Below, piece by piece: positions 25,944-54,380 of a DNA stretch of 64,000 nt (its first letter is position 1; each line of letters begins with the position of its first letter). The stretch lies in the NCBI GenBank assembly GCA_015178975.1, contig WHVD01000098.1, positions 248,001 to 312,000 of the forward strand, given 5' to 3'. This stretch comes from Hysterangium stoloniferum. Lineage: Eukaryota > Basidiomycota > Agaricomycetes > Hysterangiales > Hysterangiaceae. Below the pieces are notes generated by a model. That model searched no databases. It saw nothing but the letters and a program-made list of their open reading frames with translations, and was not told the DNA's origin. The translations under genes and the position numbers were made by a program.

Positions 25944-28553
25944 ATGGGTCCCAAATCAACGCCATGCAAACCAGTGCCAACTGCTGAGCCCTCCACAGGC
26001 ACTTCATATTGGGCTCCACTCACCACTGCCCAAATCCTGGTGCAGCGGGAGGAGCAGCTGACAATGAGAGGAGGTGGAGAGGAAGGCCAAGGAGGCTGAG
26101 GAACAGTTGGACAGAGAATACCAGGCAGCACTGGTTGCAGAGAAAGAGGCCGAGTGTGAGAGGTACTGTGAAATACACTCTGAAATACAGTCCAGATGAG
26201 CCCACACTATATTTCCATTATTATTTCTATTTTTATCTCTATCTTATTATATGCACAAGGCTGTGACCTGTGGGGGGCAAGCCCCCACCATGCTACCATC
26301 CCACAACTTTACTCGGTCACTTCACAACCTGGTGAATCAATAATAATGAGCAGTTATATCTGTCTTGGAATAGCATTTTCAAATACTTGATCACATAACC
26401 TTTGTATTACCTTCTGTGACCACTTCTGTACATTCCAGCTTTCCATTTATTCTCATTCAGAGACTTATTTTAAAGTGATTAATGTTTACATTATTCAGAA
26501 TACTTCTGAAAATTCACTGAACCTAAAAAATGTAAGTCAGTCTCCTTTTGGAACCTTGCTGAATACTTACTCATGGATCAATAATAACATTCTTAAATAC
26601 TACATATTTGGCTTGGAATAGTATTTTCATTCTTAATTTGTTTCTCTTCATACCCCACTTTCCTTCCATTCCACTCATGTCTGTCATTGAATCTTTTAGT
26701 ATAAATTATTGTCTTGTATTCTACTAATCTCCAGTTCAAACATTGATTTAGAACCTTTGGGTTAAGAACCACATTGTTCAGGCCCCTATGTGTATTTTCA
26801 ACCTATATATACTGTCCCCTAGCATGGTGATACTCAGCAACACACCCACTTAATGCTTTCCTTTTCCAACCACTCTATCTCAGTTCTGTTCTAATGACAT
26901 TCTATTATTCCTTACATCACTTCACCATATTATTTGCCATCTCAGAATATTCATCTTTTTTTTTGTTGTCTTGTATTCCTCTTCTTAATATCCAGTTCTG
27001 TTTCCCAATTTCCTTTGTTCTCTGAATATCAAATCTCCACCTTCAGCTCTGTGCTTCCATTTATTTTAGTATACATAAAACCCCATGATGTACACTACTA
27101 TCCTTCAGTTTGATTATTGACTTACATAAAATACTCATGTAGAATCCCACTCTCATCTTTAGAGGTGTATGCAATAATACCTTCATTTACTTTTAAGTTT
27201 GCTAGTGTCTGCCAGACTGAGACTTATGACCCTTTTTGACCTTAGCCTCTGAACCCCCATTTACAGCTACATTTTTAGAATCCCCCTCTCATGTTTAGAA
27301 GCTGATGGAATAATACCTTCAAAGTATTGTTCATACTGCTTAATCCTTTTGCTGGTGTCTGGCCAGACTGAGACTTACTGTATGTACTCTAGTGCCTATA
27401 GTTAGAACTCAGACACTTTTTACCCTGTAACCATGACTTGCTCAGACACCCACTTAGTGTCCTGCAAGTTGTGATTGGGGTATCATCTCGACTGTCACAG
27501 ATGGGCCTTAACTGTCAGCACAATCACTGTTTCAAACTATACTAGTCAAAACTCGAACCGTTATCTCAATCTGCATGGACTACATCCATGCTACTCCATT
27601 TATTCGACTCGCTTGTTGTTTCTTTAATCACTAGAGCAGTCGCTCAGAATTGCACTTCAAAGTCAATTCTCTTTCAGTCGTCTTAGCTATCTATTCTACT
27701 TAAGATAGCTAATCCTTTCAGCCATATTGAACTAGATAGTCAATGCACACTTTGGTCTGTATTAGACTTAGATAGTCAATACATTGTCATGTCGTACCTA
27801 AATGGTCGATATTCTTTGTATATAGAACAGTTAGAACTTCCACCACTCTTCACACTGAGGAGCAGAGGAAGAGGGATGAGGAGGAGGCTGTGTGGGCTGC
27901 CATGGAGCAAGCCAAGGCAGCTGTGGAGAGAGCTGCAGTTGCCACAGGTAAAGTAAGTACTGGTGATCCACAAAGTCGACTTTACTGATTCTGCCCTTTT
28001 AGTGCAAAGTGGTAGAGGTCGAGTCCAAGTCTGAGGGGGAGCTGGAGAGCCCCCAAAAGGTGAGTCTTGGATCCATGGGATATTCCAGGGACTAACCATG
28101 TCAACAGAAGGCAAGGAAAGTGGCTCCAGTCCACCTGCAAGTCAAGAACAATCCACAATGCTCCGGTTGTAATGACTGGAACACTGACTGCCATCAGAAG
28201 TCTGGGGCAGGGACCAGGTTGTTGGCAATGTGTGCACCTCAAAGTGAGGTGCTCACTTGTCCACAAGCCCATGGGATCCATGGCGTGAGAAGTGAGTGGG
28301 TCAGACAGGCCCATGGGCTTGGAGGAGGTCCTGGGATGGATAGCTGGGGCCATAGAGTACCAAAATGAGTTGCTTGAGAAGAGCAACCGGGTGCAAGTAG
28401 TTGTGGTGAAAGAACTCTGGGGGCTCCATGAGGAGTTTTGGACATTCCTGGTGGAGTATGGCATTATGTGTATGCAGAACTGCAAATCATGAGTTCTGAG
28501 GAGCCCAGCTCAGATGAGGATGGGGTTTTCGCAGAGATAGCAGAGCTCCCACA
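25944..28553 (+). pseudogene. antisense Zn2Cys6 gene of LTR-A element, copy 1
   Basis: It starts MGPKSTPCKPVPTAEPSTG. A Glu/Arg-rich helical stretch is cut at 26154 by a solo LTR-5 and resumes at 27860 (EEQRKRDEEEAVWAAMEQAK). An intron (GTAAGT... at about 27950) and a second one with a GTGAGT donor (about 28060) follow; the second exon reads CKVVEVESKSEGELESPQK. The cluster at 28159-28252 begins CSGCNDWNTDC but a one-base insertion disturbs its second half. The end is lost to an LTR-A insertion at 28554. It is homologous to copy 2 at 30196-31218. Confidence 0.75.
26155..27854. repeat. solo LTR-5, long form, target repeat CCGAG/CTGAG
   Basis: It runs TGTGAGAGGTACTGTGAAAT...CACTCTTCACA inside the antisense gene. 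CCGAG (26150-26154) and CTGAG (27855-27859) are the target repeats, differing by one C-to-T at a CG site. It is 1.7 kb long and has no recognised coding. Confidence 0.8.
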
Positions 28554-29160
28554 TGTTAGGGTACGTACATGGTGGGTTTCCAGAGAAACCCGCAGAATAT
28601 CTGGTAGGACTTGGCTTCAGCTTATAGGCTGCACCCTCGTGAGATCGTGTTGTCCAATTTCAGACAGGCGGACAGGAATCCCAGGGAGTCCAGGTGGGGT
28701 TCATGGGTTGAGGGGTTGTAGGTCGGAGGTCATGGGTTGAGGGGTCGTGAGTTGAGATAGATAAGAGAGATAGATGTGCCAGAGCCCATGGGCTCTGACT
28801 AGTGTGAGTGGTGTAATTCAAGTAGGAGTTTAGAGTGGAAATGTATTAGATTACTGGGGGGAATCTAAGCTGATTTTCTGACTGGATTGTATGTACAACA
28901 TCTGCCAGACTAAATAGACTGTGGAATGAATGACATACCAAATCCAGTAATAATGAAACGAAACTAGCAAAACATAAAATGAGAATAGTAAACACCAAAT
29001 TTGGTGTTAGGAAAAGGATGGAACAGAGCGGAGTCCAAATCATGACAAATCATAAACCATAACAGGAAACAGAGTGGGAGCAGAGTCCAAATCATGACAA
29101 GTCATTTGACTAAAATGGGAATGGGGCTCTGTTAGAGGGATGACGGGTTTTCTGAGCGGG
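28554..29160 (-). repeat. LTR-A copy, truncated by the next LTR-A
   Basis: It starts TGTTAGGGTACG and runs to GTTTTCTGAGCGGG, about three quarters of the LTR. It then stops exactly at the first base of the LTR at 29161. The missing last quarter is not found after 37294. Confidence 0.85.
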
Positions 29161-29994
29161 TGTTAGGATACACACACAGGCCGGGTCTCCGGAGAAACCT
29201 GTGGGATATCCAGTAGGACTTGGCTTCAGCTTATAGGCTGCACCCTCCCTAAATCGTGTTGTCCAATTTTGAACAGGTGGACAGGAATCCCAGGGAGTCC
29301 GGGCAGGGGTCGTGGGTCGTAGGTCAGAGGTCGGAGGTCGTGGGTCGTGAGGTGTGAGTTGTGAGTCGAGATGGTCAAGAGAGATAGATGTGCCGGAGCC
29401 TGTGGGCTCCGACTAGTGCGAGCGGTGTGAATCAAGCAAGGGTTTTAGAGCAGAAAATGTTATTAGATTACTGGGGGGAATCTAAGCTAATTTTCTGACT
29501 GGATTGTATGTACAACATCTGCCAGTTTATATAGACCATGGAATGCATGACATACCAAATCCAGTAATGATGAAATGAAACTAACAAAACATAAAACAGG
29601 AATAGTAAACACCAAGTTTGGTGTTAGGAACGGGACGGAACGGAGCAGAGTCCGAATCGTGACAAAGCATAACCCATAACGGGAAACGGAGCAGGAGCGG
29701 AGTCCTAAATTGTGACAGGTCATTTGACTAAAACAGGAACAGGGCTCGATTAGAGCAGTGATGGGATTCTGAGCAGGGTCCAGTGACTGATGCGTGGGAC
29801 AAAGACGGACATAGACAGAGATGGAGTCCGGGGGAAGTCTGGTGACTGATATGTGTCTTAATGAGGTCAAATGTAACGAGTCTTGTTATACGGAGTCCAG
29901 GCGGGAAATCCTATAAACAGACAATTGGTGCTTGTAGCGCGTGGGGGTGTATGTGTTAGTGCCCAGAGTCCGGTGGGATTGTCCGGTCATAACA
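29161..29994 (-). repeat. 3' LTR of the LTR-A element
   Basis: 834 bases, TGTTAGGATACACACAC to GTCCGGTCATAACA. It is very similar to 36457-37294; most differences are C/T or G/A at CG sites. The next base is already inside the leader of the antisense gene: GTACCCTCC of the polypurine tract seen at 25738 is missing. Confidence 0.92.
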
Positions 29995-30134
29995 CTTTAT
30001 GCCGAAGTCCCAAAGAGGCTCTAGACCTAGATAAGGTTCTTGTCGGCTACACACATATGTCAAAAGTCATGTCGGTTACACGTATGTGTCAAAGAGTCAT
30101 GTGATCTGGAAGGTAAGGTTCAAATGTGGCGAGC

Positions 30135-30145
30135 CTATATATAAA
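30135..30145 (+). promoter_or_regulatory. TATA-like box of antisense gene copy 2
   Basis: CTATATATAAA lies about 60 bases before the ATG at 30196. The leader TTTCTTCTTCTTTATTACCC that follows is shared with copy 1. Confidence 0.6.
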
Positions 30146-30195
30146 TTTGAAAAAATAGAAATTTCTTCTTCTTTATTACCCCCATCATCGATACA

Positions 30196-31218
30196 ATGGG
30201 ACCAAAGCCCACGCTGCGCAAGCCTATGCCAACCACCAGGCCCTCCATGGGCAGTCAGTACCGGGCGCCACTCCCCGCTGCCCAAATTTTGGCACAGTGG
30301 GACGAGCAACATTGACAGCGAGAAGAGGCGGAACGAGAAGCCTGAGAGGTGGAGGAGGCCCTGAATAGGGAGTACCAGGTGGCAGTGGCCGTGGAGGAAG
30401 AGGCTGTGAGGCAGAAACAGAAGGATGAGGAGGAGGCTGTGTGGGTGGCCATGGAGAAGGCCAGGGTGGCGGCAGAGAAAGCCCGGGTGGCCGTGGAGAG
30501 AGCCGCGATTGTTGCAGGAAAGGTAAGTCCCATCATTCGACTTGTTGTGTTTTTCTTTGACTTGGTGTTTCAGTGCAAGGCAGCAGAAGTCGAGTCCGAG
30601 TCTGAGGGAGAGGCAGAGAGCCCCAACAAGCTAAATTTCGGGTCTGTGGGAATACCGTGGAGCTAACTGTATCAACAGAAAGCAAGGAAGGCGGCGCCAG
30701 TCTGCCTACCGACTTGGAACGACCCGCGGTGTTCCGGTTGTAATGACCGGAACACTGAGTGTAATTGGAAGTCCGGCCGGGGCCCGGGATGTTACCAGTG
30801 CGCACACCTCAAGGCGAGGTGCTCGCTCATTCATGAGCAGGCCACAGGGTCCGGTAGTACACGGGAAAGTGGCGGGTCGGATGGATACTCTGGTCTGGAG
30901 GAGGTTTTGGGACGGATCGCTGATGGGATTGAAGCCCAAAACGAGTTGCTCCAGAAGGGCAACAAGGTCAGTGTTGTCATGGCCACTGATCTCCGCGCAA
31001 TCCACGGGGACCATTTCACATTTCTGAGGGACTATGCAGGGTTTGTATGTGAGAAGCCAGAGGAGGGGAGTTCTGAGGAGGCCAGTTCAGATGAGGAGGG
31101 GGTGCCCACAGAGGTCGCGGAACTAACCGAGGAGATGAATGCCACAGGAAAGGCTGAGGCGGGAAAACAGGAGGCGGGGAAAAAGAACAGCCCCATCAAT
31201 GTAGATGAAGAAGAGTAG
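30196..31218 (+). pseudogene. antisense Zn2Cys6 gene of LTR-A element, copy 2
   Basis: Predicted order: a basic/Pro N-terminus (MGPKPTLRKPMPTTRPSMG), a Glu/Ala/Arg-rich coiled-coil-like helix to 30522, an intron (30523-30573, GTAAGT...TTTCAG), an acidic exon (VESESEGEAESPNK), a second intron ending TCAACAG at about 30678, then CSGCNDRNTEC and CYQCAHLKARC (30730-30822). This is C-x2-C-x6-C-x9-C-x2-C-x6-C, the fungal binuclear zinc cluster that binds DNA in Gal4-type regulators. A helical region and an acidic tail ending INVDEEE follow; stop at 31216. Two in-frame TGA (near 30315 and 30350) and a donor changed to CT (after SPNK) make this copy a likely pseudogene. Its function is unknown; a DNA-binding regulator of the element or of host genes is possible. 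Confidence 0.78.
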
Positions 31219-31410: not shown

Positions 31411-32653
31411 TCAGAGAGACGATAATGGTCCAGGTTTGAGTGGATAAGCTGTATGAAAGTCAGTAACGATTTCCGTGGCATTACCGAGTTCTGTGGCCAA
31501 AATCCATGAGGTTTCTTCATCGGTGCCCTCGTAACCCGCCCACTTGACCAAGTAAAGCAGTTTACAAGTGCATCGACGCTTGTCAATTTTTGAATCTAAA
31601 ATCTGTGAGATTTCAAACTCAGGTTCTCCGTCAATAATGACAGGAGGAGGCGGAGATTGCATGCGATCCAGGATAGTGTTAGCAGTACAAGGTTCTAGCA
31701 TAGAAACATGAAATACTGGGTGTACCACACACATGCTATCCGGAAGCCGTAGAGTCCAAGAGACTGAACCTACTTGTGCAATGATTTCAAACAGACCTAA
31801 ATATTTTTCAGCAAGCTTTTTTGATGGACGGGTAGTCCGAAAGAATTGAGCTTTGACATAAACACGGTCGCCAATCTTGAAATTGGGTGGCGGGATCCGG
31901 TGTTTGTCCGCTGAATGTTGGTATTGCTCTTGGGCGGACAATATTGCAGTCCGGAGTTCCTCGTGGAGCTCGTGGAGGTCCATGGTGAACTCTTGAGCGT
32001 GAGCGGAGGTGAGATTTCGTTCTGGATGTACTGTAATATTGGGATTATATCCTTTATTTGCAAAGAACGGGGAAACACCAGTAGTGGCTGAGGGTGCATT
32101 GTTGTAAGCAAATTCTGCAAGTGGTAACAAGGATTTCCAATTGTCCTGTTGGTAGTTGCAATATATGTGGAGGTATTGTTCCAATGTCTGGTTGACGCGT
32201 TCGGTTTGTCCGTCGCCTTCCGGGTGATGTCCGGACGTGAAATGTAATGTCATGTCCAAGGATTTTCCGAGGGATCTAAAGAAGTGAGACACGAACTCTG
32301 ATCCTCGATCAGAAGTCACGTGGGATGGAACTCCGTGCTTGGAAAATACATGGATAATGAAAAGTTCCGCTAACTGCACGGACATAATTGTGTCATATGT
32401 AGGGATGAATGTACTGTACCTTGTTTTGAGAATCTGTCAACAACGACTAGAATGGCGGAAAAGCCTTCGGAATCTGGTAGGTATTCAATGAAATCCATAG
32501 AGATAGAATTCCACAGTTGTTCTGGTACCGGGAGTTGTTTCAAAAGGCTGTATGGCTTGTGTCGCTGAGATTTCGAGCGGGGACAAGTAGTGCAAGATTT
32601 ACAATAGTGCTTAACAAATCCATGGAGTCCGGGCCAAGTATATTCTCTTCTTA
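31411..32653 (-). pseudogene. LTR-A element integrase and chromodomain
   Basis: The open frame below 32385 reads TSDRGSEFVSHFFRSLGK (second Asp), HPEGDGQTERVNQTLEQYL (Glu block), [32 protein letters not shown], then LLYLVKWAGYEGTDEETSW, a chromodomain, and stops at 31411. The zinc domain and first Asp block (WNSISMDFIEYLPDSEG) lie between 32385 and 32653 in shifted frames. The stop lies about 190 bases from the convergent stop of the antisense gene. Confidence 0.9.
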
Positions 32654-35250
32654 TTAATGATAGAGTTTTGTTGTACCCGAAATGTCCTGAGAGTGGATGA
32701 TCGTGTTTGTATTGAAGGATCCTGAGGCGGAGGCCGTCGGAGTCCGGTAGATCCTATCGTCAAGTCTAATGAAACCATGCTGATCAAGAGACCACCGGGG
32801 TTGATCAGAGTCCATGGGATTGTCAAGGTGAGCTTTAGTTATTGGGTCTAGTGGAATTGCCGATAGTATATCTTGATGTAACTTCTTGATATCCATAATG
32901 ATAATTCCATGGACAATGGGATTGATGAGGAAAGTTGTGTGGACTGATGTGGTAAGTTGCTGATTCGTGAAAATAGGTTTCAGGTTGTGCAGATTTACCG
33001 TGGCATAGTCGTTGTTCCCCTCTTTAGGATAGACATCCCATTGTCTAGTTAAAGCGTCGGGTTTGCTGCCGAGATGGACAGGTTGAAAATGGATAATCAT
33101 GTTGAAAGCAGATAGGTATTCAGACCAGCGGGCCTGCCGGTGGGTCAAAAGTTTTGTGGTAGAAAAGTATTCCAGGTTTTTGTGATCTGTTACAATGTCA
33201 ATAGGAGCTCCTGAACCTTCCAAATAGTGTCGCCACGCTTTGAAAGCGGAAAATATTGCCAGACGTTCTTTATCATGAACATCGTAGTTGAGCTCTGCTC
33301 CGGTAAAAGTCCGGGACAGAAAGGCCACGGGGTGGACTTCTCCGTCGGAGTCCTGGATAGACAGAATGGCTCCAAGTGCATAACCCGAGGCGTCCGTTTC
33401 AACAATGAGCAGGAAGTCCGGTTTCCAATGCAACAGAATAGGAGCTGTAGAAAAAGAATTTTTTAAAAGATTGAAAGCTGTTTGACACTTATCATTGAAA
33501 TTCCACTTGAGTACCCTTACGCGTGAGACGGGTAAGGGGTACCGTGATGTTGGAATATCTGCGGATAAATCGTCTGTAAAAATTGGCAAAGCCGAGGAAG
33601 GATTGTATATCTTTAACTTTTCGGGGTTCAGGCCAATCTTTGATGACTTGCACTTTAGTTTCATCCATGCGGAGTCCATCGGATCCCATCATGAAACCTA
33701 GGTATTCCATGGAGTCCGTGTCAAAAGTACATTTTTTACCATTTGTGAATAAACCATGTTGTCTGAGCCTCCAGAGAACTTCACGTACTTGTTTGTTGTG
33801 TTCCATGGGATTCTCGGAGTAGATAAGAATGTCGTCCAAGTAAACAATGATGCATACATTGAGCATGTCGGAGAAAATGTCATTGATAAAATGCTGAAAA
33901 ACAGACGGAGCATTGGTGAGTCCAAAGGGGATCACCAACCACTCGAAGGCCCCATAACGGGTTCTAAAAGTGGTTTTCCATTCGTCGCCCGCGGCGATCT
34001 GGACCAAATGATAGGCATGTTTGAGATCAATTTTGGTGTAAATCCGGGCATTCTGCAGAGCATCGAGCAGATCAGATATAAGTGGGAGTGGATATTTATC
34101 CTTCTTGGTGACAGCATTGAGTCCTCTAAAATCAACACAAAGTCGAAGAGATCCATCCTTTTTTCTGACAAACAGAACAGGTGCTCCAAAAGGAGATTTT
34201 GAGGGTCGGATAAAACCTATGGACAGATGTTCATCCAGGAAATTGCGGATTGCGGAAAGTTCCGTGGATGAGAGCCGGTAAATATGTCCTAGGGGTGGCT
34301 GGGTGCCATCTTCAAGATCGATTTTTAAGTCGTATTCTCTGTGAGGTGGAAGCTGGTCAGCTTTCCACTTGCAAAAAACATCCACGAAGTCATGATATTT
34401 CTCCAGGACGCCTTCTAGGTCAGCGGCTTGCTCAGATTTGGATACCGGGGTTGAAAAATGTCCAGTTGCTTCATCAATTTTTAAGTTGATAGTGAACACC
34501 TGGGACCCATCCATTTTTGAAGCCCTAATAAAAGCTGCAGCATTAATCAGAGAAATGGACGGAGGTGCCATGGGTTCCGGGGAAGCTATGGGTGCTGTAG
34601 GGATCACAGGAGTCCTCGAGACTGCAGGTGCCGGGAAGGCCATGGGTGCCGTGGAGGCCGAGACAGGCACAGTTTCCTCGGCTGCCGTGGGGGTCCAGAA
34701 TGTTACACTGTTAGCTATCCAGTCAATCAACGGATTGTAGCAGGTAAGCCAGTTATGTCCTAGGACCACCGAGCAACTTGAGTCTAACTGGGTCACATAG
34801 AAAGTGACCAATTGAGATGTTCCACACGGGAAACTGATGGATAAATCACAAGCTTGGGTAACAACCGAATTACTTGTGCCATCGAAGAGGCGGAGACCGA
34901 CGGGATTTATCGAATAAGTTGACAAAGAATTTTTTTTTGCGTGAATTTTGTATCTAAAAAACAATGAGTCGAGCCGGAATCTATGAGAGCTGAAAAAATG
35001 AATTTTGGAATCATATTAGACATAAGTTTAACGAAAAGTGAATCAGAATGAGAAAGAGTGGATGTGTTGAGGCGAGTAAACTCTTGAATGTGCGGAGAGG
35101 CAACGCAACCCCCAACCCGCACGGAGTCCATGGGGTTGCTTACTCTTTTTTCGAGTCGGAAGCCGGTTTGTCCTTCGACGGGGTTTCTGTGGAGGCCTTG
35201 GCTGTTCGACCCTTTGAAGAGTTTGCTTTTGCCAGTGGACATTCCGGGAC
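32654..35250 (-). pseudogene. LTR-A element protease, reverse transcriptase and RNase H
   Basis: Protease block ALIDSGSTHCFLDTKF near 34970-35000, then SCSVVLGHNWLTCYNPLIDW. Reverse transcriptase: SPFGAPVLFVRKKDGSLRL, YTKIDLKHAYHLV, PFGLTNAPSVFQHFIND and CIIVYLDDILIYSENP with YLDD intact, all in one 490-codon frame (33492-34964). RNase H: LLIVETDASGYALGAILS, KERLAIFSAFKAWRHYLEG and IVTDHKNLEYFST, in the next frame after a shift near 33490. Apart from that shift the catalytic blocks are complete. Confidence 0.92.
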
Positions 35251-36420
35251 TCAATGACCAGGTTTCCCGCACAATAGACACAGGTTGTTATCCATATGAC
35301 ATTGTCTTTCCTGTGGGGTCAATTTGCCATTGGGTCCGAGTTTGCCTGAGAGGTCGGGTTTTCCGGCTTGCTTGCTGGACTGTTGACCCTTGTTATTGTC
35401 CTTATTGTCCTTGTTGTTGTTGTTGTTGTTTGAAGACTTTTTATCGTTCTTCTTGTCGGATTGTGTGGAGTTCTGGTTGCTGGTTGACGAATTGTTGTTG
35501 TTTTTATTGGCCGTGGACTTGTTTACTTTGTCCGCGGAGGTCTCGCGGGCAACTTCCGTGTGACATTCCCAATAATGTGCGTCCGCGTTTTGAGCTTTGA
35601 ATTGCATATGGGACAGGGTTTTTGGCTTGCCATCTTCTCCTTTTGAGACTTCGTCTTTAAGGCGGGATGGCAGACCGGTGTAGAATTGGTGGCAGAGAGC
35701 AGGATTGCCCCACTGACAACAAGCTGCAAGATTATTGAATTGGATGATATAGTCTGTGATGCACTGCATGTCCTTCATATGAAGATTTGTGAGACTATTC
35801 TCGGCTTCTCCTGTCGGGTCATATGGGCCAAAGTTGGTTTCAAGCTCCTCAACAAAAGCATCCCAATTTTCGAGCCAAAGCGGCTCTTCCTCAGAAATCC
35901 CGCTAAAAGCCAGTTCGAACCATTTCAACACGGATCCCGACAAATATGAAAGTGTGTAGTTGACCTTTCGGGAGTCCGTGGAGAATGCAGCGGCTTGATC
36001 GCAGAAGTTGAAGCGACATTGCATGAGGAAAGTAGAGAGCTTGTTTGGGTTGGAACCTGTGAAGGGTTCCGGAGCATTGACTTTTGACCGTGGAGGTTCT
36101 TGTTCCTTTTTCTTTCATTCTTCGAGCAGGTGCATCATGAATTTATCTATAGTACCTGCTAAAAATTCAGAAGTAGGATCCCTTGAGTGTGGTCGTTCGT
36201 AAAGCAGAGGATTTTCGACACCTTTGCCCTTGTCGGGGGTCATGGAATCGTCCTCATGCTTGGATTCGTCCTGGTTTTCCAGGACTTCTCCGATATGGGC
36301 TTCTTCCACAGAGTCCGACTGGTTCACAAGTGTCTGACTGGTATACAAAGTTAACAGGGAATGAAGAGTCGACGGTCCAGGTAATGATGCCTGTGCGCGT
36401 GTATTTCTTCTTGGTGGCAT
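35251..36420 (-). pseudogene. LTR-A element gag
   Basis: It starts MPPRRNTRAQASLPGPS at 36420. A TGA at 36115-36117 interrupts it, after which the frame goes on as KKKEQEPPRSKVNAPEPFTG. The capsid-like part shows LKWFELAFSGISEEEPLWL, NWDAFVEELETNFGPYDP and ITDYIIQFNNLA. A long Asn/Lys/Ser-rich tract precedes the zinc knuckle CLLCGKPGH, whose last part (VPECP) follows a second TGA at 35251-35253. Both TGA fit lost Arg codons. Confidence 0.9.
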
Positions 36421-36456: not shown

Positions 36457-37294
36457 TGTTAGGATACACACACAGGGTGGGTCTCCGGAGAAACCCGCAG
36501 GATATCCGGTAGGACTTGGCTTCAGCTTATAGGCTACGCCCTCGCTAGATCGTGTTGTCCAATTTCGAACAGGCAGATGGGAATCCCGGGGAGTCCGGGC
36601 GGGGGTCGTGGGTCATAGGTCGTAGGTCAGAGGTCGTGGGTCATGAGTTGTGAGTTGTGAGTCGAGATGGTCGAGAGAGATAGATGTGCTGGAGCCCGTG
36701 GGCTCCGACTAGTGCAAGTGGTGTGAATCAAGCAAGGGTTTTAGAGCAGAAAATGTTATTAGATTACTGGGGGAAATCTAAGCTAATTTTCTGACTGGAT
36801 TGTATGTATGTACAACATCTGCCAGTTTATATAGACCATGGAATGCATGACATACCAAACCCAGTAATGATGAAACAAAACTAACAAAACATAAAATGGG
36901 AATAGTAAACACCAAGTTTGGTGTTAGGAATGGGACAGAACAGAGCGGAGTCCGAATCGTGACAAAGCATAACCTATAACGGGAAACGGAGCGGGAGCGG
37001 AGTCCTAAATTGTGACAGGTCATTTGACTAAAACAGGAACAGGGCTCGATTAGAGAGGTGACGGGATTCTGAGCAGGGTCCAGTGACTGATGCGTGGGAC
37101 AAAGACGGACATAGACAGAGATGGAGTCCGGGGGAAGTCCGGTGACTGATATGTGTCTTAATGAGGTCGAACGTAACAAGTCTTGTCGTACAGAGTCTGG
37201 GTGGGAAATCCTATAAACAGACAATTGGTGCTTGTAGCGCATGGGGGTGTACGGGTTAGTGCCCAGAGTCTGGTGGGATTGTCTGGTCGTAACA
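36457..37294 (-). repeat. 5' LTR of the LTR-A element
   Basis: 838 bases, TGTTAGGATACACACAC to GTCTGGTCGTAACA. On the minus strand it carries a TATA box (TCTATATAAACTGG, near 36825-36838) in a block conserved in all LTR-A copies. It is followed on the minus side by gag after 36 bases. Confidence 0.92.
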
Positions 37295-37741
37295 GGATAA
37301 AACAGTTCTAACATTGAAACGTGAAAGACAGGATGAATTCCTTTGAGATGATTGGGAAGTTTTAATCTGTATGAATGAGATCCTGGTCAAGCAATGATTT
37401 TGAATGGGCCTAATAATTTTTCCGATAATTTTTTCAATGGTCAAGTTGTTCGAATGAAATCGGATCATATGAAGACTTGAGAATGGATCGGAAAGTTGAA
37501 TGACTCTTTTCGATGTATGTCGGAATATTTTTGATAACGTATTTACACTTTCTGGATATTTGATTTGAGATGTTTATGTAAAGCTTTGAGATCTGTCATA
37601 TAATTGTGAGCTAGAGTGGAAGCTGAATCTTTTTCAGGGTAAATTTCTAACAATGGATGATAACCTTTATTAGCAAAAAATAGTGTTTCACCAGTTGTTT
37701 CAGAAGGTGCATTGTTGTAAGCAAATTCAGCTAAAGGAAGT
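37295..37741 (-). pseudogene. fragment of a G3-type gypsy integrase
   Basis: It matches 45730-46180 of element G3 almost base for base (for example TTGAGATGATTGGGAAGTTT), covering the end of the integrase core and the C-terminal part on the minus strand. It is cut on the left by LTR-A and on the right by LTR-4. Confidence 0.85.
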
Positions 37742-39018
37742 TGTGAGGTATCAGCCTCATCTTATAATATTCTCTTAATTTTCTGTGAATTATCTAATAT
37801 TTTCTCGAATTTATTGTATTTTTATTATATTTTTATTGTGAAATATAAGGCCTAATTCCTTTTAACTTCACATAATAATAGCATATATGAGCTCATATAA
37901 TGCTATTATATCTTATTTATTTTATTATAATTTTTAACTAATTATTTATATTTTATTTACTTAGTTATTGCTTTTCAGCACATTGTTTTGCTTCAATGTG
38001 CACATTTTTGGAGTCATGTGACTTATTAGATAAGCCTCTGGTGTCGGGATATCACACAAGTCATGAATGTGACTGTAACAACTTACTCGAGTCATAATTT
38101 GATTCCACTGACTCATCAAATGCTTCCGTCCTGGGACCGCGGCCTTGAACCTTCATGTTCAAGCCAAAGGTTGGAACCCTTGTCTCAGAGAGGGGAATCA
38201 CATGGTAATAAAGGGTAAAAAATAAGTAGAATATGAGGTCATTATGACCTAAATAATGACCTCATAAAGTAAATAAATGATTAAATATTTAGTTATCGAA
38301 ATGTATATAAGGAGGGCCAAGTTTCCAATAAAATCAATCTATCTCACATTTTACTGCACAGCTCAGAAGCTTATCTAGTCATCCTAAGGACAATAATAGC
38401 CTTAGTCCGATACACTAACTGCAAGCACCTACACTTGCAGAATCTTGAATCTTTGTCAGCAACTCTTGAACTTAGCTAATCATCTAAGTTCCCCCAGCCT
38501 CACAGCTACCCTTTAGGCTTATTAATTACATAATAAACCTAATAAGTATCTAAGTATCCTTACTGAAATTCCCTGCCAATACTAGATTATTCAAGGCCCA
38601 GCCCTAAGTTTATTGAATTAATCAAGTACAAGCACTCAAATAATCCAATACACATTATTTTCTATATTAATAAATTATTTAACACCTTGTTAAATAACTA
38701 TTAATAGTTACAAATAAGCATACAAGAATCTGAAGCTTTATATCAAGTCTCTGCTAAGTTACTGTGCATATACTCAGCTTCTAGCCCCTATTCTCAAGGA
38801 ATAGTTCTTTTATTTGCTAAAAGAGTCATACATATATTGTTCTATTGAACCTTTCAATAATCAAAGTAAGCATTGATTTGAGTTGTTTAAGCTTAATAGC
38901 ACAGCTCATTAATCTATCAGTATTTAAATTACTGGACCTTTGCTTGTTTTATTGTTGAAGCTCTGTGACACTATAGCATATATTGAGCTATCTAAGAGAA
39001 ACCCCTGAATACATTACA
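37742..39018. repeat. LTR-4 copy, 1277 bases
   Basis: It runs TGTGAGGTATCAGCCTC to CTGAATACATTACA. Partial copies are at 13401-13618 and, reversed, at 63559-63629; the latter confirms the CATTACA end. The flanks (GAAGT, CGACC) do not match. It contains a TATA-like ATGTATATAAGGAGGG near 38301-38316. No coding found. Confidence 0.75.
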
Positions 39019-43600: not shown

Positions 43601-45375
43601 ATGTCTGATATAGAAGTCAATCAACTCAAATCAGAATCCAAGTTTTTGGGTTTCAAGGATACAGATGCAGTTGTTGATGTGGTTGGTAAGTCAATTTCTG
43701 GGATTTCTTTAAATTAGTTAATAAGTTATTTTTTAGAAGAAACTCCCAAAAAGTGCATAGCAGATTGTGAAGAACCGTTCAACAAGGCAACTCGTAAGGG
43801 AATTGGGATGCAATGGGAATTTGAGGCAAAATCGGAAAATTCATAATTTTTCAGTTTTGTCAATTTTTTGTCGATTTTTGCTAATTTGTTTTTTCCAGTT
43901 GCACCATGTGTTTTAACATGAATTTTGTGTGCAAGAAGAGTAATGCATCGTCAAATTGTGATCGGTGCAATCGATTGCATCGGGCCTATTATTGGACTGT
44001 AAATAGGCCAGCCGGAAAACCACATCGAAACCGAAAAAAGAGTCGAAACATGATCAAAGAATCAAGAAATGAAAGTGAAGATGGTAGTCCAGGGATTCGC
44101 AAACTTGGACAAAGGAAGAATATTCGTTGCAACATTATGTCAAGAATGTCAAATTTTTCAAGACAGTCGAGAAGGTTGGAAAATCGGTTGGATAATCACT
44201 TGGAGAAAGAGATAAAATCGATTGGTGAAAGGATGTTGAAATTGGAAGAAACTATGGAAGATTTAATCAGTGAAGTCAAAGCATTTAGAGAGGATTTGTT
44301 ACGACCGTGTCGTAACCTGTGTCGCAACCCGATGGTCCCCGAGAATACTATAGTCTATCGATGTTCAAAGTTATTGATCAAGTCATCATTTTGGCAACCT
44401 TCGGAACACCGACACTGATGTATACCTTCACAGCGATCAAACCCCATTTATGCCCCTGTCAAAATATACTCGTACCATCTGGTTATGCTTTGATACATCC
44501 CTTTTCATTATGATGATCTGTTTTACTCTATGTTTCACATATGCCCATATATACTTGTAGCCCATGGACTATTCCCTTTTCTCGTAATCCCGCTCTTGGC
44601 TAATCTCAGCTTCCGATCTTATCGTAACCTTCTGGTTTCTAGTCAAGTCTATTTGTCAAATAGTGTTTCCGCTCTTCCCTTAGTTAGTAGTTTCTAGACG
44701 CCGATAACTCATATATAGACCTGCTGTAATGTAACTACTAGACAATTAGAATATTGACTTAGATCGACTTAGATACTCTTCTAATTTCCGACTCCATTAT
44801 CTATTCACGACCACCACATTCTGACCCCATCTGATTTACGATTCAACCTACATTTACGACTTCAACCTCTAATCCCGACTCTCAGTCTCCGACTCTCGGT
44901 CTCCGACACTCTCAGTCTCTGACACTCTCAGTCTCCGACACTCTCAGTCTCTGACTCTCGGTCTCCGACTCTCTCAGTCTCCAACTCTTGGTCTCCGACT
45001 CTCAGTCTCTGACTCTTGGTCTCTGACCCCTCAGCCCAACCCTCGACTTATCCTTCAGTTTCCGATCGGTAGTTTACCGAGAGGTTTACTCGACAGGACT
45101 AGTTTCTGCCCGCCCAAAATTTAAGGACACCCGACGGTAACTTGTGAGGGCGCAGCACATAAGCTGAAGCCAAGTCCTTCCATTCAGTCCCCGTCGGTCT
45201 GCTGACATCCATCAGTTTCTGCTCTTAACAGGATTTTTCAATTTTGTCAAAGAAATTGGTCAAAAGTGGTGATTTTAACAAGGAGACTGATATTAGTGTT
45301 AATAGTGGAAGATTTAGAGGGGCATGGTTTGATAAAATGGCGGAGTTGAGAGAGGAAGGAATTGAGGATTTATAG
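43601..45375 (+). pseudogene. antisense Zn2Cys6-like gene of G3, split by a solo LTR-2
   Basis: It begins MSDIEVNQLKSESKFLGFKD, then a likely intron (GTAAGT near 43687, ending TTTTTTAG near 43736) and further short exons of uncertain splicing. After TTTTTTCCAG the frame reads CTMCFNMNFVCKKSNASSNC, DRCNRLHRAYYW (43900-43989): C-x2-C-x6-C-x8-C-x2-C-x6 and then Tyr in place of the sixth Cys. A basic region and a coiled-coil-like helix (LENRLDNHLEKEIKSIGERM) follow to 44296. Past the solo LTR the frame continues EDFSILSKKLVKSGDFNK and ends EEGIEDL, stop at 45373-45375. Pol of G3 ends about 100 bases further on in the opposite direction. Confidence 0.72.
44297..45230 (+). repeat. solo LTR-2, target repeat GGATT
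   Basis: TGTTACGACCGTGTCG to TTTCTGCTCTTAACA, 934 bases, with GGATT on both sides (44292-44296, 45231-45235). It contains a TATA box (TATATATACTTG near 44548) and imperfect CTCTCAGTCTCCGAC repeats at 44880-45030. Confidence 0.95.
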
Positions 45376-45479: not shown

Positions 45480-46840
45480 GTGGAAGATTTGGATATTTTT
45501 GATGAAATTCTTCGATAAGGTCAAAAGCATTTTCGAGATCTTGAGATCCTAACCACAAAGTTTCTTTGTCTGTTCCTTCGTAACCTAACCAAGCAACTAA
45601 ATATTGTAACGAATCTTTATATCTTTTATTGAATTTTGAATCCAAAATTTTTCAAATTTCATATTCAGGTTCTTCTTCAACATAAATTGGTGGAGGAGGA
45701 GGTTGTTTTTGATTTGGGAAAGTATTGGGATAAAATGGTTCTAACATTGAGACGTGAAAGATGGGATGAATTCCTTTGAGATGATTGGGAAGTTTTAATG
45801 TATATGAATGAGATCCTGGTCGAGCAATGATTTCAAATGGGCCTAATAATTTTTCCAATAATTTTTTCGATGGTCGAGTCGTTCAAATGAAGTCGGATTG
45901 TACGAAGACTTGAGAATGGATCGGAAAGTCGAATGACTCTTTTTGATATATGTTGGAATATTTTTGATAATGTATTTGCACTTTCTGGATATTTGATTTG
46001 AGATGTTTATGTAGAGCTTTGAGATCTGTCATATAATCACGAGCTAGAGTGGAAGCTAGATCTTTTTCAGGGTGAATTTCTAATAATGGATGATAACCTT
46101 TATTAGCAAAAAATGGTGTTTCACCAGTCGTTTTGGAAGGTGCATTATTGTAAGCAAATTTGGCTAAAGGAAGTAATTCGGTCCAATTGTCTTGTTGATA
46201 ATTGGAATAGATTCATAAATATTGTTCGAGAGTTTGATTGATTCGTTCAGTTTGCCCATCACCTTCAGGATGGTATCCTGAAGTGAAATGTAATTTCATG
46301 TCAAGCGCTGTTCCGAGAGATCGAAAGAAATGCGATACAAATTCAGATCCTTGATCAGAAGTTACATGACTTGGGACTCCATGTTTTGAAAAGACATGTA
46401 ATACAAAAAGTCAAGCGAGTTCGGGAGCGTTGATCGTAGTATAAGTTGGAATGAATATTGCTTGTTTCGAAAGTCGATCGACTATTACGAGTATTGAGTC
46501 GTAACCATTCGAGGTCAGTAATTGTTCAATAAAATCCATCGAGATCGAATGCCATGGTCGAAGAGGAATCAGAAGTTACTTAAGTAATCCAATGGGTTGA
46601 TGTCATGGAGTTTTCGATTTTGTACATATTACACATAATTGAATAAAATCTTGAATATCTTGTTGGAGTTGTGGCCAAAAGAAATCTCGATATATTGTTC
46701 GATACGTTTTCATTTGACCGAAATGGCCTGCGGTAATATGATCGTGTCGTGATTGAAGAATTCGAAGTTGGAGATTTTGATAATCGGGAACGTAAATTCT
46801 GTTTCAGAAACATAAAAAATCTTGTTTGTTCTTTTGCCAA
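45480..46840 (-). pseudogene. G3 integrase and chromodomain
   Basis: Minus-strand pieces: [19 protein letters not shown] and [20 protein letters not shown] (46050-46190), LLGPFEIIARPGSHSYTLKL, VFHVSMLEP-type IFHVSMLEPFYPN, then QYLVAWLGYEGTDKETLW, the chromodomain. The catalytic blocks are present but shifted, with stops at TGA positions. Confidence 0.82.
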
Positions 46841-51444: not shown

Positions 51445-53045
51445 CAGTAGGCAACAAAACCCTTACAATGTTTTGTACTTTTTGAAAGACATGGCTATTC
51501 CTCCAGAAATAAATTCTGTAAAATGCCAAAAATATTATGTAATATACTTCAACATCATACCTTCCAGAAATGCACAGCCACAAGGCACCACATCCTTATT
51601 TGGTAAGTCCACATTACACACAAACCAATAGCTCATTGTAAGGGTTTTGTTGCACACATTTTTAAAGTTCAAAATGGGTCCTAGTCACATGACTTTGTTT
51701 ATAAAGTTCAACAAAGTCATGTGACCACTCTTCCCCAATGTATATAAGATGAAAGCAACCAGTTGGAATCCCACAATCACCCTACTCACAATGAAAAAGC
51801 TCTCCTCCAGCCAAATCCAACATGTTCTTACTCTACTTGACTCTGGCATTTCTGGAGCTCAAATATGTTACCAAACTCATCTCAGCAGTGCCTCCATCAG
51901 TCGTATTCACTCTGAGCATCACCCTGACCTCCCCAAATGCTCTGGTGGCCATCCTACAAAGCTTACGACAGCCAATATTGCCTATGCTAGAAGAATAATT
52001 TGCATGGGGAAGGTTGATAATGGCACACAGGCAACCAAGAAACTTATAGACATCATCAACACTCCTATTACTTCCCAAACAGTGCATCACCACCTCAAAA
52101 CCATAGGCATGAGGGCTGTGGTAAAGAGAAAAAGGCCACTTCTCAAACCTCATCATCAGAAATCTTGATTGGAGTTTGCAGAAAGACATTTGGAATGGAC
52201 CCTGGAGGACTGGAAGAGGATTATATGGTCTGATGAGACTAAGATTAATAGGCTGGGATCAGATGGAAGGAAATATGTGTGGAAAAATGTGGGTGAGGGG
52301 TTAAATGATAGGTTAGTAGAGGGAACAGTCAAGTTTAGAGGAGGAAACCTGATGATGTGGGGATGCATGGGCTGGGATGGGGTTGGGTTTGCAACCAAAA
52401 TTGATGGGAGGATGGATGCTGAGCTTTATGTGGAGATCCTGGATGATTAACTCCAGCAAACCCTCAAATATTACAACAAAACAGTGGCTGACATTGTGTT
52501 TCAACAAGACAATGACCCCAAACACACCAGCAAAAAGGCCCAGAAATGGTTCACTGACCATGATGTTACAGTCCTCAAGTGGCCTGCACAATCTCCTGAC
52601 ATGGATTCTATTGAACATCTGTGGAATCATGTCAAAAAGAAGCTGGGGGAGTATGAACAGCCTGCAAATAGTGTTCATGAACTGTGGGAGAGGGTGCAGA
52701 AGGTGTGGGAAGAGATTCCAAAGGAGGAGTGTCAGAAGCTTATTGGAGTATGCCTAGAAGACTTGCAGCAGTGATTAGAGCAAAGGGGGGCCATACTAAA
52801 TACTAATTTCTTGTAATAATAGTCTCAAAATAGTGTGCAACAAAACCCTTACAATGAGCTATTGGTTTGTGTGTGATGTGGACTTACCAAATAAGGACAT
52901 GGTGCCTTGTGGCTGTGCATTTCTGGAAGGTATGATGTTGAAGTATATTACATAATATGTTTGGCAATTTACAGAATTTACTTCTGGAGGAATAGCCATG
53001 TCTTTCAAAAAGTGCAAAACACTGTAAGGGTTTTGTTGCCTACTG
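51445..53045 (+). mobile_element. Tc1/mariner-type transposon 2 with about 215-base inverted repeats
   Basis: The ends are CAGTAGGCAACAAAACCC and its reverse complement. TA stands on both sides (51443-51444, 53046-53047). The two inverted repeats (51445 to about 51660, about 52830 to 53045) are nearly identical. It sits in the solo LTR-A. The high match of its arms and its almost open gene suggest a recent insertion. Confidence 0.95.
51791..52806 (+). pseudogene. Tc1 transposase, DD34E type, nearly intact
   Basis: It starts MKKLSSSQIQHVLTLLDSG (helix-turn-helix part), then SASISRIHSEHHPDLPKCSG and TPITSQTVHHHLKTIGMRA (second DNA-binding part), WTLEDWKRIIWSDETKINRL (first Asp), [18 protein letters not shown] (second Asp) and SPDMDSIEHLWNHVKKKLG (Glu, 34 residues on). 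Only three faults were seen: TGA at 52166-52168 (QKS-stop-LEFAERH), TAA at 52447-52449, and a one-base shift near 52750 before the usual ending AKGGHTKY. It cuts and pastes the element by binding the inverted repeats. Confidence 0.92.
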
Positions 53046-54070
53046 TAGACAGGGACAGAGTCCGGTGGGTTTTCCAGTGACTGAAACACAATGTAATGAA
53101 GTCGAACATAGACAAGTCTGACGTACGGAGTCTGGTGGGAATTCCAGTAAACTGACAATGGGTGCATATAGGGCGTGGGTGTGTATATGTTAGTGCCTGG
53201 AGTCCGGTGGGAATTCCAGTTGTAACAATACCCCAACTCCAGGCCCAACTCCATCACAACTCAACACTTCTAAATATTGTTCAAGTTGCTCCCCAAGCGA
53301 CTCAATCGTGCTGGTTTTTTTGTCCAACCCAACGCCCAATAATTGCAATTGCTCAGTCATGAGCCCTTGTTGATGCAGTGTCTTGAATTGGAACCGAGTC
53401 ATCTCTGAGAAATAGGTGCACATGAGGTGGTTTTGCTCCTCTAACACATTGGCCTGCCATTCTTGGTAGGACTCGTTCCCATCAGCATCTGGGAATATGC
53501 ACCCAAGCTTTTGATTGGCACACTCTTGACAGGTGCAGCCCTGACCACTTGCCCATGGATGGCAAGTCCGACCCCATTTAGTGCACTGGTTGCACTTTGG
53601 GTCATTTTTGGGCCCCACCTTGGGGGCCTGTTTTTGTTTCTATAATCAAAAAAATTAGAAAATTCTAAAGTTAGGAACCTGAACCCACCTTGGGGCTCAA
53701 CGGCCCCAGTACATCCTCCTCATCCTCCTCTTCCTCTTCATCATCAGACTCTGAAGGTGTCGTGGCCTTGCACTGAAAATAAAAAGTCAGCATGGTCCAC
53801 AAAAGAAATGGGAACTGACTTACCTTTCCCTCTCGCTTCTTTTTCGCCACCTCTCGCACCTGATTGGCCTCCTGCTGCTTCTTCTTCACATGCACCACTC
53901 CTCTCGCACCTGATCAGCCTCCTGCTGCTTCTTCTTCACATGCACCACTCCTCTCACACCTGATTGGCCTCCTGCTGCTTCTTCTTTGCATGCACCACAT
54001 CCCAGTGCTTGCACACAGCCTCTTCTACTGCCAGTTTATTTTCCTTGGCCTCTATGTATGGTCGCCAGCT

Positions 54071-54210
54071 CCTCCTTCTCCTTCTGCTCCTCCTTCTCCT
54101 TCTGCTCCTCCTTCTCCTTCTGCTCCTCCTTCTCCTTCTGCTCCTCCTTCTCCTTCTGCTCTCCTTCTCCTTCTGCTCCTCCTTCTCCTTCTGCTCCTCC
54201 TCCTCATGCA
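54071..54210 (-). repeat. 18-base tandem array coding a Glu/Lys helix
   Basis: About seven units of CTCCTCCTTCTCCTTCTG on the plus strand. On the minus strand this codes EEQKEK repeats in the antisense gene; a unit one base short shifts the frame to Arg/Ser. The Leu-rich plus-strand frames here are artefacts. Confidence 0.88.
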
Positions 54211-54380
54211 CCTTCCTTTTCTCCTCAAGCAGTCATCGACATTCTTGCACACTAGATTACCCACTCAGAACTGACATGGGAGTGACCATCAACTGAACTG
54301 GGAATGGTTTCAACCCTGAACCAATGGTCATGGTGGTCAAGGGAAGAGAAGTGAAAGATCAAGTGCCAGCACCCCTCGAA

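Follow-up and report, generated by a model that had tools for sequence, protein, structure and literature searches.

A conserved antisense gene for a Zn2Cys6-type protein in chromodomain Gypsy elements of Hysterangium stoloniferum

Results

The stretch of Hysterangium stoloniferum DNA analyzed here comprises 64,000 nucleotides (contig WHVD01000098.1, positions 248,001 to 312,000; hereafter, the window). The focal element lies on its minus strand and is a chromodomain Gypsy element (chromovirus) of a family that we refer to as family A. From 5' to 3', it consists of a 5' LTR (36459 to 37294), a gag open stretch (35251 to 36114), a pol open stretch with the reverse transcriptase (33492 to 35015), the 3' part of pol with the second half of the integrase, an SH3-like domain and the chromodomain (31411 to 32436, with the stop codon at 31411), and a 3' LTR (29161 to 29992). 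In a Pfam scan of pol, RVT_1 (1.2e-35) and Chromo (2.4e-06) were both above cut-off; rve scored 20.8 bits compared with a cut-off of 32.6, with only profile positions 47 to 102 inside the scanned open stretch. The two LTRs are 92.9% identical, 53 of their 59 differences being transitions, and a comparison of the flanking bases gave no matching 5-bp target duplication beside them. The element is bordered on one side by a broken pol similar to that of family B (37306 to 37746; see below) and on the other by an older LTR of its own kind (28554 to 29160). Nine nucleotides beside the 3' LTR (29993 to 30005), present in most aligned copies, are missing in the focal copy; this gap is where the plus-strand primer tract would lie. 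Elsewhere in the window, plus-strand open frames at 51725 to 52774 resemble, by motif, a Tc1/mariner-type transposase.

Between the pol stop codon and the 3' LTR, we found a three-exon gene on the plus strand (30196 to 31218), antisense to gag-pol and convergent with pol. It ends at 31218, 192 bp from the pol stop codon at 31411, and the two genes do not overlap. Exon 1 (30196 to 30522) starts with an ATG at 30196 and encodes a Pro-rich start followed by a long, charged and probably helical stretch; exon 2 (30574 to 30630) encodes a short acidic/Ser segment; and exon 3 (30679 to 31218) encodes the zinc cluster, a middle segment, and an acidic C terminus, and ends with KKNSPINVDEEE. By eye, the protein from N to C terminus thus comprises a charged, helical-looking N terminus, an acidic/Ser stretch, a basic stretch, the cluster, the middle segment, and an acidic tail. 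The cluster itself, CSGCNDRNTECNWKSGRGPGCYQCAHLKARC (30730 to 30822), has the spacing C-x2-C-x6-C-x9-C-x2-C-x6-C. Intron 1 (30523 to 30573) has the ends GTAAGT...TTTCAG, and intron 2 (30631 to 30678) contains a CTAAC branch-like motif and has a CT donor in the focal copy. A TATA-like box, TATATATAAAT (30136 to 30146, plus strand), lies ~50 bp before the ATG and is followed by a pyrimidine-rich leader; this box is conserved among the aligned family A copies and is located outside the LTR. With two in-frame TGA codons in exon 1 and the CT donor at intron 2, the focal copy of the gene is decayed. The first-pass annotation had placed a spliced zinc-cluster gene here, and on re-reading the sequence its coordinates, strand, convergence with pol, and exact six-Cys spacing were all right; the spliced gene stands on sequence landmarks that recur across copies (see below), whereas an intact gene in the focal copy does not stand.

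The pattern C..C.{6}C.{5,12}C..C.{6,8}C has two matches in the 64-kb window, both within multi-copy genes, and none in 30 order-1 Markov versions of the window. A second, older copy of the gene with both introns visible (27855 to 28553, plus strand) is cut off by the LTR that starts at 28554. At the end of exon 3 (~31186 to 31215), most copies of both gene types described below have the C terminus KK-x-SPI-[NE]-[VI]-D, which, together with the acidic residues that follow in some copies, resembles a SUMO-interaction motif.

The gene is a standard part of the family. The genome searched comprises 111 Mb in 554 contigs. Using exon 3 as the query, we obtained 1350 first-look candidates, of which 150 were scored and all were significant; with the 3' part of pol, 118 of 4848 candidates were scored, and because these are the best matches, old diverged copies fall outside the count. 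Of the 118 pol copies scored, 115 have at least part of the gene downstream: in 67, a scored gene match lies on the opposite strand 198 to 214 bp away, and when the downstream side of the other 51 was fetched, 48 had a whole or partial gene. Where a match reaches the gene end, the ends of the gene and of pol are ~200 bp apart (197 to 228 bp in single-piece matches among those 51). The match in L044 is limited to the last 15 codons and several other loci are split; the gene region is missing from the fetched downstream sequence of L057 and L080, and L085 consists of 153 nt at a contig edge without the gene. A single TGA in many of the exon 3 matches is the ordinary protein stop in fetched copies of the 170-aa type. 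The first-pass annotation had named two outcomes that would speak against it, namely that most copies lack the gene or that the cluster is absent in better preserved copies; neither was observed, and the better preserved copies have the cluster.

To describe splicing and selection, we used 81 loci (L009 to L089). Discarding 3 without a match, 14 fragments, and 4 with an unclear start or end of the frame left 60 full copies of exon 3. These fall into two gene types, one of 29 copies sampled through gene similarity and one of 31 copies sampled through pol. All splice landmarks were matched by pattern in 55 of the 60 copies. Exon length is mostly constant among these 55 (327 nt for exon 1 in 41 copies, 57 nt for exon 2 in 51), and the introns vary in length regardless of multiples of three (48 to 56 nt, with one of 37 nt, and 47 to 53 nt). 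Because the pattern demanded both ends of intron 1 as well as the intron 2 acceptor, only the donor of intron 2 gives an independent count: it reads GT in 54 of the 55 copies. CTAAC or CTGAC occurs within intron 2 of 53. These observations support two predicted introns at conserved positions. Read on the pol strand, the introns have no GT-AG ends, and the genomic RNA should therefore keep them, and this would account for the persistence of an intron-containing gene in a retrotransposon.

In its real frame, exon 3 has a median dN/dS between types of 0.25 at a dS of 0.80, and 45 of the 60 copies are without an internal stop. The five other frames have dN/dS values of 1.13 to 2.13, except for the mirror frame, which has 0.31 with 187 stops; among the minus frames, only frame -0 is stop-free, in 12 of the 60 copies, at a dN/dS of 1.13. 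Near pairs (dS under 0.1) have a median of 0.43, the kind of value that an admixture of post-insertion decay would give. Of the 60 copies, 59 retain the full set of six Cys (five positions in 60, the first in 59). Along exon 3 of the 60 copies, dN/dS is 0.26 before the cluster, 0.06 in the cluster, 0.30 in the middle, and 0.36 in the C-terminal part; the cluster has 85% amino acid identity at a dS of ~1.1, and the C-terminal part is the most diverged, with 58% identity. In the 45 copies with exons 1 and 2 in frame, dN/dS between types is 0.21, 0.16, and 0.26 for exons 1, 2, and 3, respectively. For 78 pairs drawn from 13 copies, dN/dS is 0.27 in sense pol and 0.25 in the gene; judged in this way, constraint on the gene is as tight as that on pol. 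The frame-wise dN/dS, the conservation of the Cys residues, and the conservation of the frame across two introns rule out a chance open frame, and a shadow of the sense gene is ruled out by the 192 bp that separate the gene from the pol stop codon and by the minus frames, of which only frame -0 is ever free of stops. As judged from these substitution patterns, purifying selection is shown to act on the predicted protein, and it is strongest on the Zn2Cys6-type cluster. The copies thus show a genuine accessory gene of a chromodomain Gypsy lineage that, by the same measure, is kept as a protein by purifying selection.

Zn2Cys6 clusters follow the spacing rule C-x2-C-x6-C-x5-12-C-x2-C-x6-8-C, to which families A (x9), B (x8), and C (x10) all conform. 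A match to Pfam Zn_clus (PF00172), the check proposed in the first-pass annotation, was found, but not above the cut-off of 21 bits: the focal exon scored 12 bits and the second copy 15.8 bits, and 4 of 14 members matched, with a best E value of 0.12. A profile compared with the PDB gave five weak matches (E values of 0.19 to 0.89), none significant singly, of which three are the zinc-cluster regulators Pho7, C27B12.11c (the same protein as Pho7), and Leu3, covering the Cys region where the alignment is shown, and the other two a fucanase. Because the Pfam score is below cut-off, we refer to the protein as Zn2Cys6-type and leave it outside PF00172. Folding a single sequence in silico gave a mean pLDDT of 44, which was uninformative, and the model was discarded. 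Outside this genome, neither one sequence nor a 14-sequence alignment recovered relatives of the gene, and in the pol control, 4855 relatives were recovered, with Trametes cinnabarina, Paxillus rubicundulus, and Cyclocybe aegerita among the best 120 listed; since spliced antisense exons may be unpredicted in other genomes, the lack of gene relatives is no proof of absence. Neither the pol query nor the gene alignment recovered a relative from IMG/VR.

Antisense zinc-cluster genes also occur in two other Gypsy families seen in the window, and in one of these the exon structure is the same as in family A. The integrase/chromodomain region of family B (45481 to 46470, minus strand) shares 59% identity with the focal pol across 331 aa and has internal stops, and its zinc-cluster exon (43885 to 44418, plus strand) is antisense to this pol; the sixth Cys position is Tyr in the window copy. 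The zinc-cluster exon of family C (53190 to 53639, minus strand) has an E/R-rich, exon 1-like stretch upstream (53954 to 54232, minus strand), and within the window we identified no adjacent Gypsy pol belonging to it. In the genome, the family B gene lies antisense within 2.5 kb in 61 of 71 family B pol rows and on the same strand in none, based on 93 of 151 zinc matches (short, second-fragment, and C-terminal-only rows were left out). The family C gene occurs with family C pol in at least 30 of 61 pol rows, based on 150 zinc rows among the matches listed. The 71 and 61 pol rows come from 150 rows, with 18 left out. For copies mostly chosen from rows without stops, dN/dS is 0.18 in family B (9 copies, with the six Cys complete in 8) and 0.16 in family C (8 copies). 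In family C, copy L090 is interrupted by two phase 0 introns whose positions correspond to those of the family A gene, and its spliced frame of 292 aa is open. Across 14 exon 3 proteins drawn from families A, B, and C, five Cys show no variation and the remaining one almost none. When the window was searched, direct similarity was seen between families A and C (39% over 62 aa, E value of 5e-05); the likeness of the family B gene lies in its Cys pattern and place. The LTRs of families A and C have a 40-nt block in common (AGGACTTGGCTTCAGCTTAT.GGCTGC.CCCTC; 29215 to 29254 in the window and 267 to 306 in L090), which is the best local match between them. One family A copy and one family C copy also have in common a stretch of the leader region (score of 62 compared with a shuffle maximum of 30 in 500), part of which is at the LTR edge, where priming is expected.

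The two gene types of family A form a mosaic with the remainder of the element. In 120-nt windows over 11 and 12 chosen copies, divergence between the types is 0.21 to 0.31 across the gene; outside the gene, it is 0.053 in the leader (30040 to 30159), 0.082 in the 3' spacer, and 0.049 to 0.066 in pol, which is at or below the level within the first type, the second type being more uniform (0.024 to 0.069). With transversions only, in 60 copies, the excess rises around the ATG (30130 to 30250) and is again approximately at the within-type level from 31240, the window at 31150 giving no value. The introns also diverge between types (0.21 and 0.33), while the leader diverges little (0.076), arguing that the difference between types reflects history rather than constraint; different constraint is, therefore, an unlikely cause. 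LTR distance is 0.096 and 0.066 within types and 0.095 between them (14 and 28 copies), and a match of gene types to LTR types, as repressor-operator co-divergence would give, was not seen in these copies. Gene and pol distances are uncorrelated in 13 copies (r of 0.15, p of 0.19), which fits shuffling and has little power. Three loci (L064, L068, and L086) look chimeric, with N-terminal parts ~74 to 82% and C-terminal parts ~46 to 56% identical to the focal protein. Chimerism, first suspected from split matches, is a tentative reading here, since the two types are so similar N-terminally that a test could not assign the N-terminal half in 16 of the 81 loci, nor either half in 4 more.

Discussion

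Our data support the central claim of the first-pass annotation that a Gypsy element carries an antisense gene of Zn2Cys6 type convergent with pol, and we found that this gene is a conserved and selected part of the element. That annotation had offered three candidate roles, which are weighed below: LTR regulation, silencing of sense transcription, and action on host genes. The gene is antisense between pol and the 3' LTR, is present in most of the scored pol copies, and is conserved like pol; in these respects it is an antisense accessory gene (aORF-3R), and the conserved leader with its TATA-like box is a candidate promoter. The importance of this gene lies in the combination of a multi-copy family under selection, a recognizable DNA-binding motif, and its occurrence in three Gypsy families of one genome. 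It would show a retroelement with a fungus-type regulator, and it would suggest how a spliced gene persists despite replication through RNA.

We moderately favor the idea that the protein is a nuclear regulator of the transcription or silencing of its own element, a reading that draws on the presence of the gene in nearly all scored pol copies, on coding constraint that is strongest in the cluster, on the kept Cys residues, on the counterparts in families B and C, and on the zinc-cluster regulators among the weak profile matches. According to this model, the gene would have a promoter of its own next to the 3' LTR, on the inner side, and the antisense message would be spliced and translated into a nuclear, probably dimeric DNA-binding protein. 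This protein would bind sites in its own element, perhaps of the CGG type in the LTR or leader, and binding would set the transcription or silencing state of the element. As the gene is antisense, its introns would stay in the genomic RNA, and the intron-bearing gene would survive retrotransposition. The sites themselves give a mixed picture. On the LTR side, CGG-N3-CCG occurs at 6, 5, and 4 places in L058, L043, and L060 compared with shuffle means of 0.4 to 0.5; in L048 there are none and in L049 few, and this unevenness over the five copies counts against the model. Of 300 shuffles each, 2, 4, 161, 38, and 61 reached the highest count over 63 spacings for L058, L043, L049, L060, and L048, respectively, and CGG plus CCG is not raised in the family C LTR (31 compared with 27.3). 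Because the sites are uneven in family A and not enriched in family C, the target of the protein is a guess. Further observations count against a regulator of the own element: the Pfam match is below cut-off and the profile matches are not significant singly, the searches outside this genome recovered no relative, only 15 of the 55 copies with matched splice landmarks have an open spliced frame, and the LTR is undifferentiated between carriers of the two gene types, which gives no sign of co-evolution of protein and LTR.

A serious rival, although we consider it rather unlikely, is that the protein counteracts silencing by binding non-coding DNA of the element and removing or blocking cytosine methylation, by analogy to VANC. 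Summed over the 21 pairs of seven near-identical copies, 448 of 624 transitions are CpG transitions, next to 70 transversions. These CpG-directed transitions suggest that the host probably methylates family A, and it is on account of this decay that we take counter-silencing seriously. A counter-defense of the VANC type also requires a DNA-binding protein that the element itself encodes (PMC5735166), but VANC belongs to plant DNA transposons. Less likely still, the protein may act outside transcription, either in nuclear import of the pre-integration complex or in guiding insertion to chosen sites. A function in the pre-integration complex is discussed for plant antisense genes (PMC7264820); against a role of this kind, pol already has a chromodomain.

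Alternatively, the antisense RNA rather than the protein may matter by pairing with the genomic RNA and feeding copy-number control or RNA silencing. To reach the 3' LTR, sense genomic RNA has to cross the whole gene, so that the two are complementary by layout, and regulation of this kind is discussed for such genes (PMC7264820). However, a purely RNA role needs neither a dN/dS of 0.06 to 0.26 nor kept introns, frame, and Cys pattern; this coding constraint favors a function of the protein, and we regard an RNA role as quite improbable. The least probable reading is that the protein acts mainly on host genes, i.e., in host manipulation, for which the host-type nature of zinc-cluster regulators and the diverged C-terminal part can be counted, but the gene accompanies the element in nearly all pol copies examined.

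Returning to the own-element regulator, the mosaic pattern raises the question of how its two types came to lie in otherwise homogeneous elements. The simplest reading is that the gene has been exchanged as a module between related elements, as the divergence profile suggests. Going further, we speculate, as a minor possibility, that the gene is a swappable regulator cassette, with diverged types recombined in near the start and stop codons, the DNA-binding domain fixed, and the C terminus diversifying. In this respect it would be like the immunity modules that are exchanged among temperate phages. If so, the cassette could sort elements of the same genome into separate regulatory groups, or it could help to escape a host factor. 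In the literature searched, as far as its text was accessible, this mosaic of diverged gene types in a homogeneous element is not described, and it merits a study of its own.

LTR retrotransposons with antisense accessory genes have been reported a number of times, and what these genes do is still regarded as undetermined (PMC7264820). Among the plant Gypsy elements, the antisense genes of Grande (gene23), RIRE2, Retand (TRP28), and PvRetro13 are of the same kind as the gene described here when compared by description. For Grande, an own promoter and a nuclear protein are reported, and for TRP28 of Retand, DNA binding is predicted (PMC7264820, PMC11963269). The available parts of these sources differ from our case in that they mention no zinc cluster and in that Retand is of a non-chromovirus lineage.

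A further case is fungal. The gene brtn of Boty / BcGypsy1 of Botrytis cinerea was reportedly described by Zhao et al. in 2011, and Botrytis belongs to another phylum of fungi than Hysterangium. Boty is a chromodomain Gypsy element with the antisense gene in the same place; the accessible text on brtn mentions no domain, and we set it beside our gene by description (PMC7264820, PMC4227169, PMC8365987). The first-pass annotation knew of no fungal case with a domain of the transcription factor type. As a statement about antisense genes in fungal Gypsy elements, this does not hold given brtn (PMC7264820, PMC8365987); as a statement about zinc-cluster genes, it does hold for the text accessible to us, and the open-licence papers searched gave none describing such a gene in a retrotransposon.

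Two systems outside Gypsy elements also invite comparison. HBZ is a bZIP protein and not a zinc-cluster protein. As a nuclear protein of HTLV-1 that is read antisense from the 3' side of a retroelement (PMC11963269), it is similar to the predicted protein in outline; HTLV-1 is a retrovirus with the antisense promoter inside the 3' LTR (PMC7264820). With a zinc cluster instead of a bZIP and a TATA-like box outside the 3' LTR, the gene described here is not an HBZ-like antisense regulator. The VANC proteins of Arabidopsis VANDAL transposons are encoded by the element and act sequence-specifically on it (PMC5735166); they come from plant DNA transposons and are likened to our protein by description.

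In the cluster itself, the likeness is to the Zn2Cys6 regulators Gal4, Leu3, and Pho7, which have the same six-Cys spacing and of which Pho7 and Leu3 gave weak profile matches. Unlike these regulators, the focal protein is below the threshold of Pfam Zn_clus and is encoded by a retrotransposon. Altogether, as far as searched, the zinc-cluster antisense gene is an unreported variant of an accessory gene that is already known in kind, and its recognizable motif makes the role of antisense genes directly testable by asking whether the domain binds its own element.
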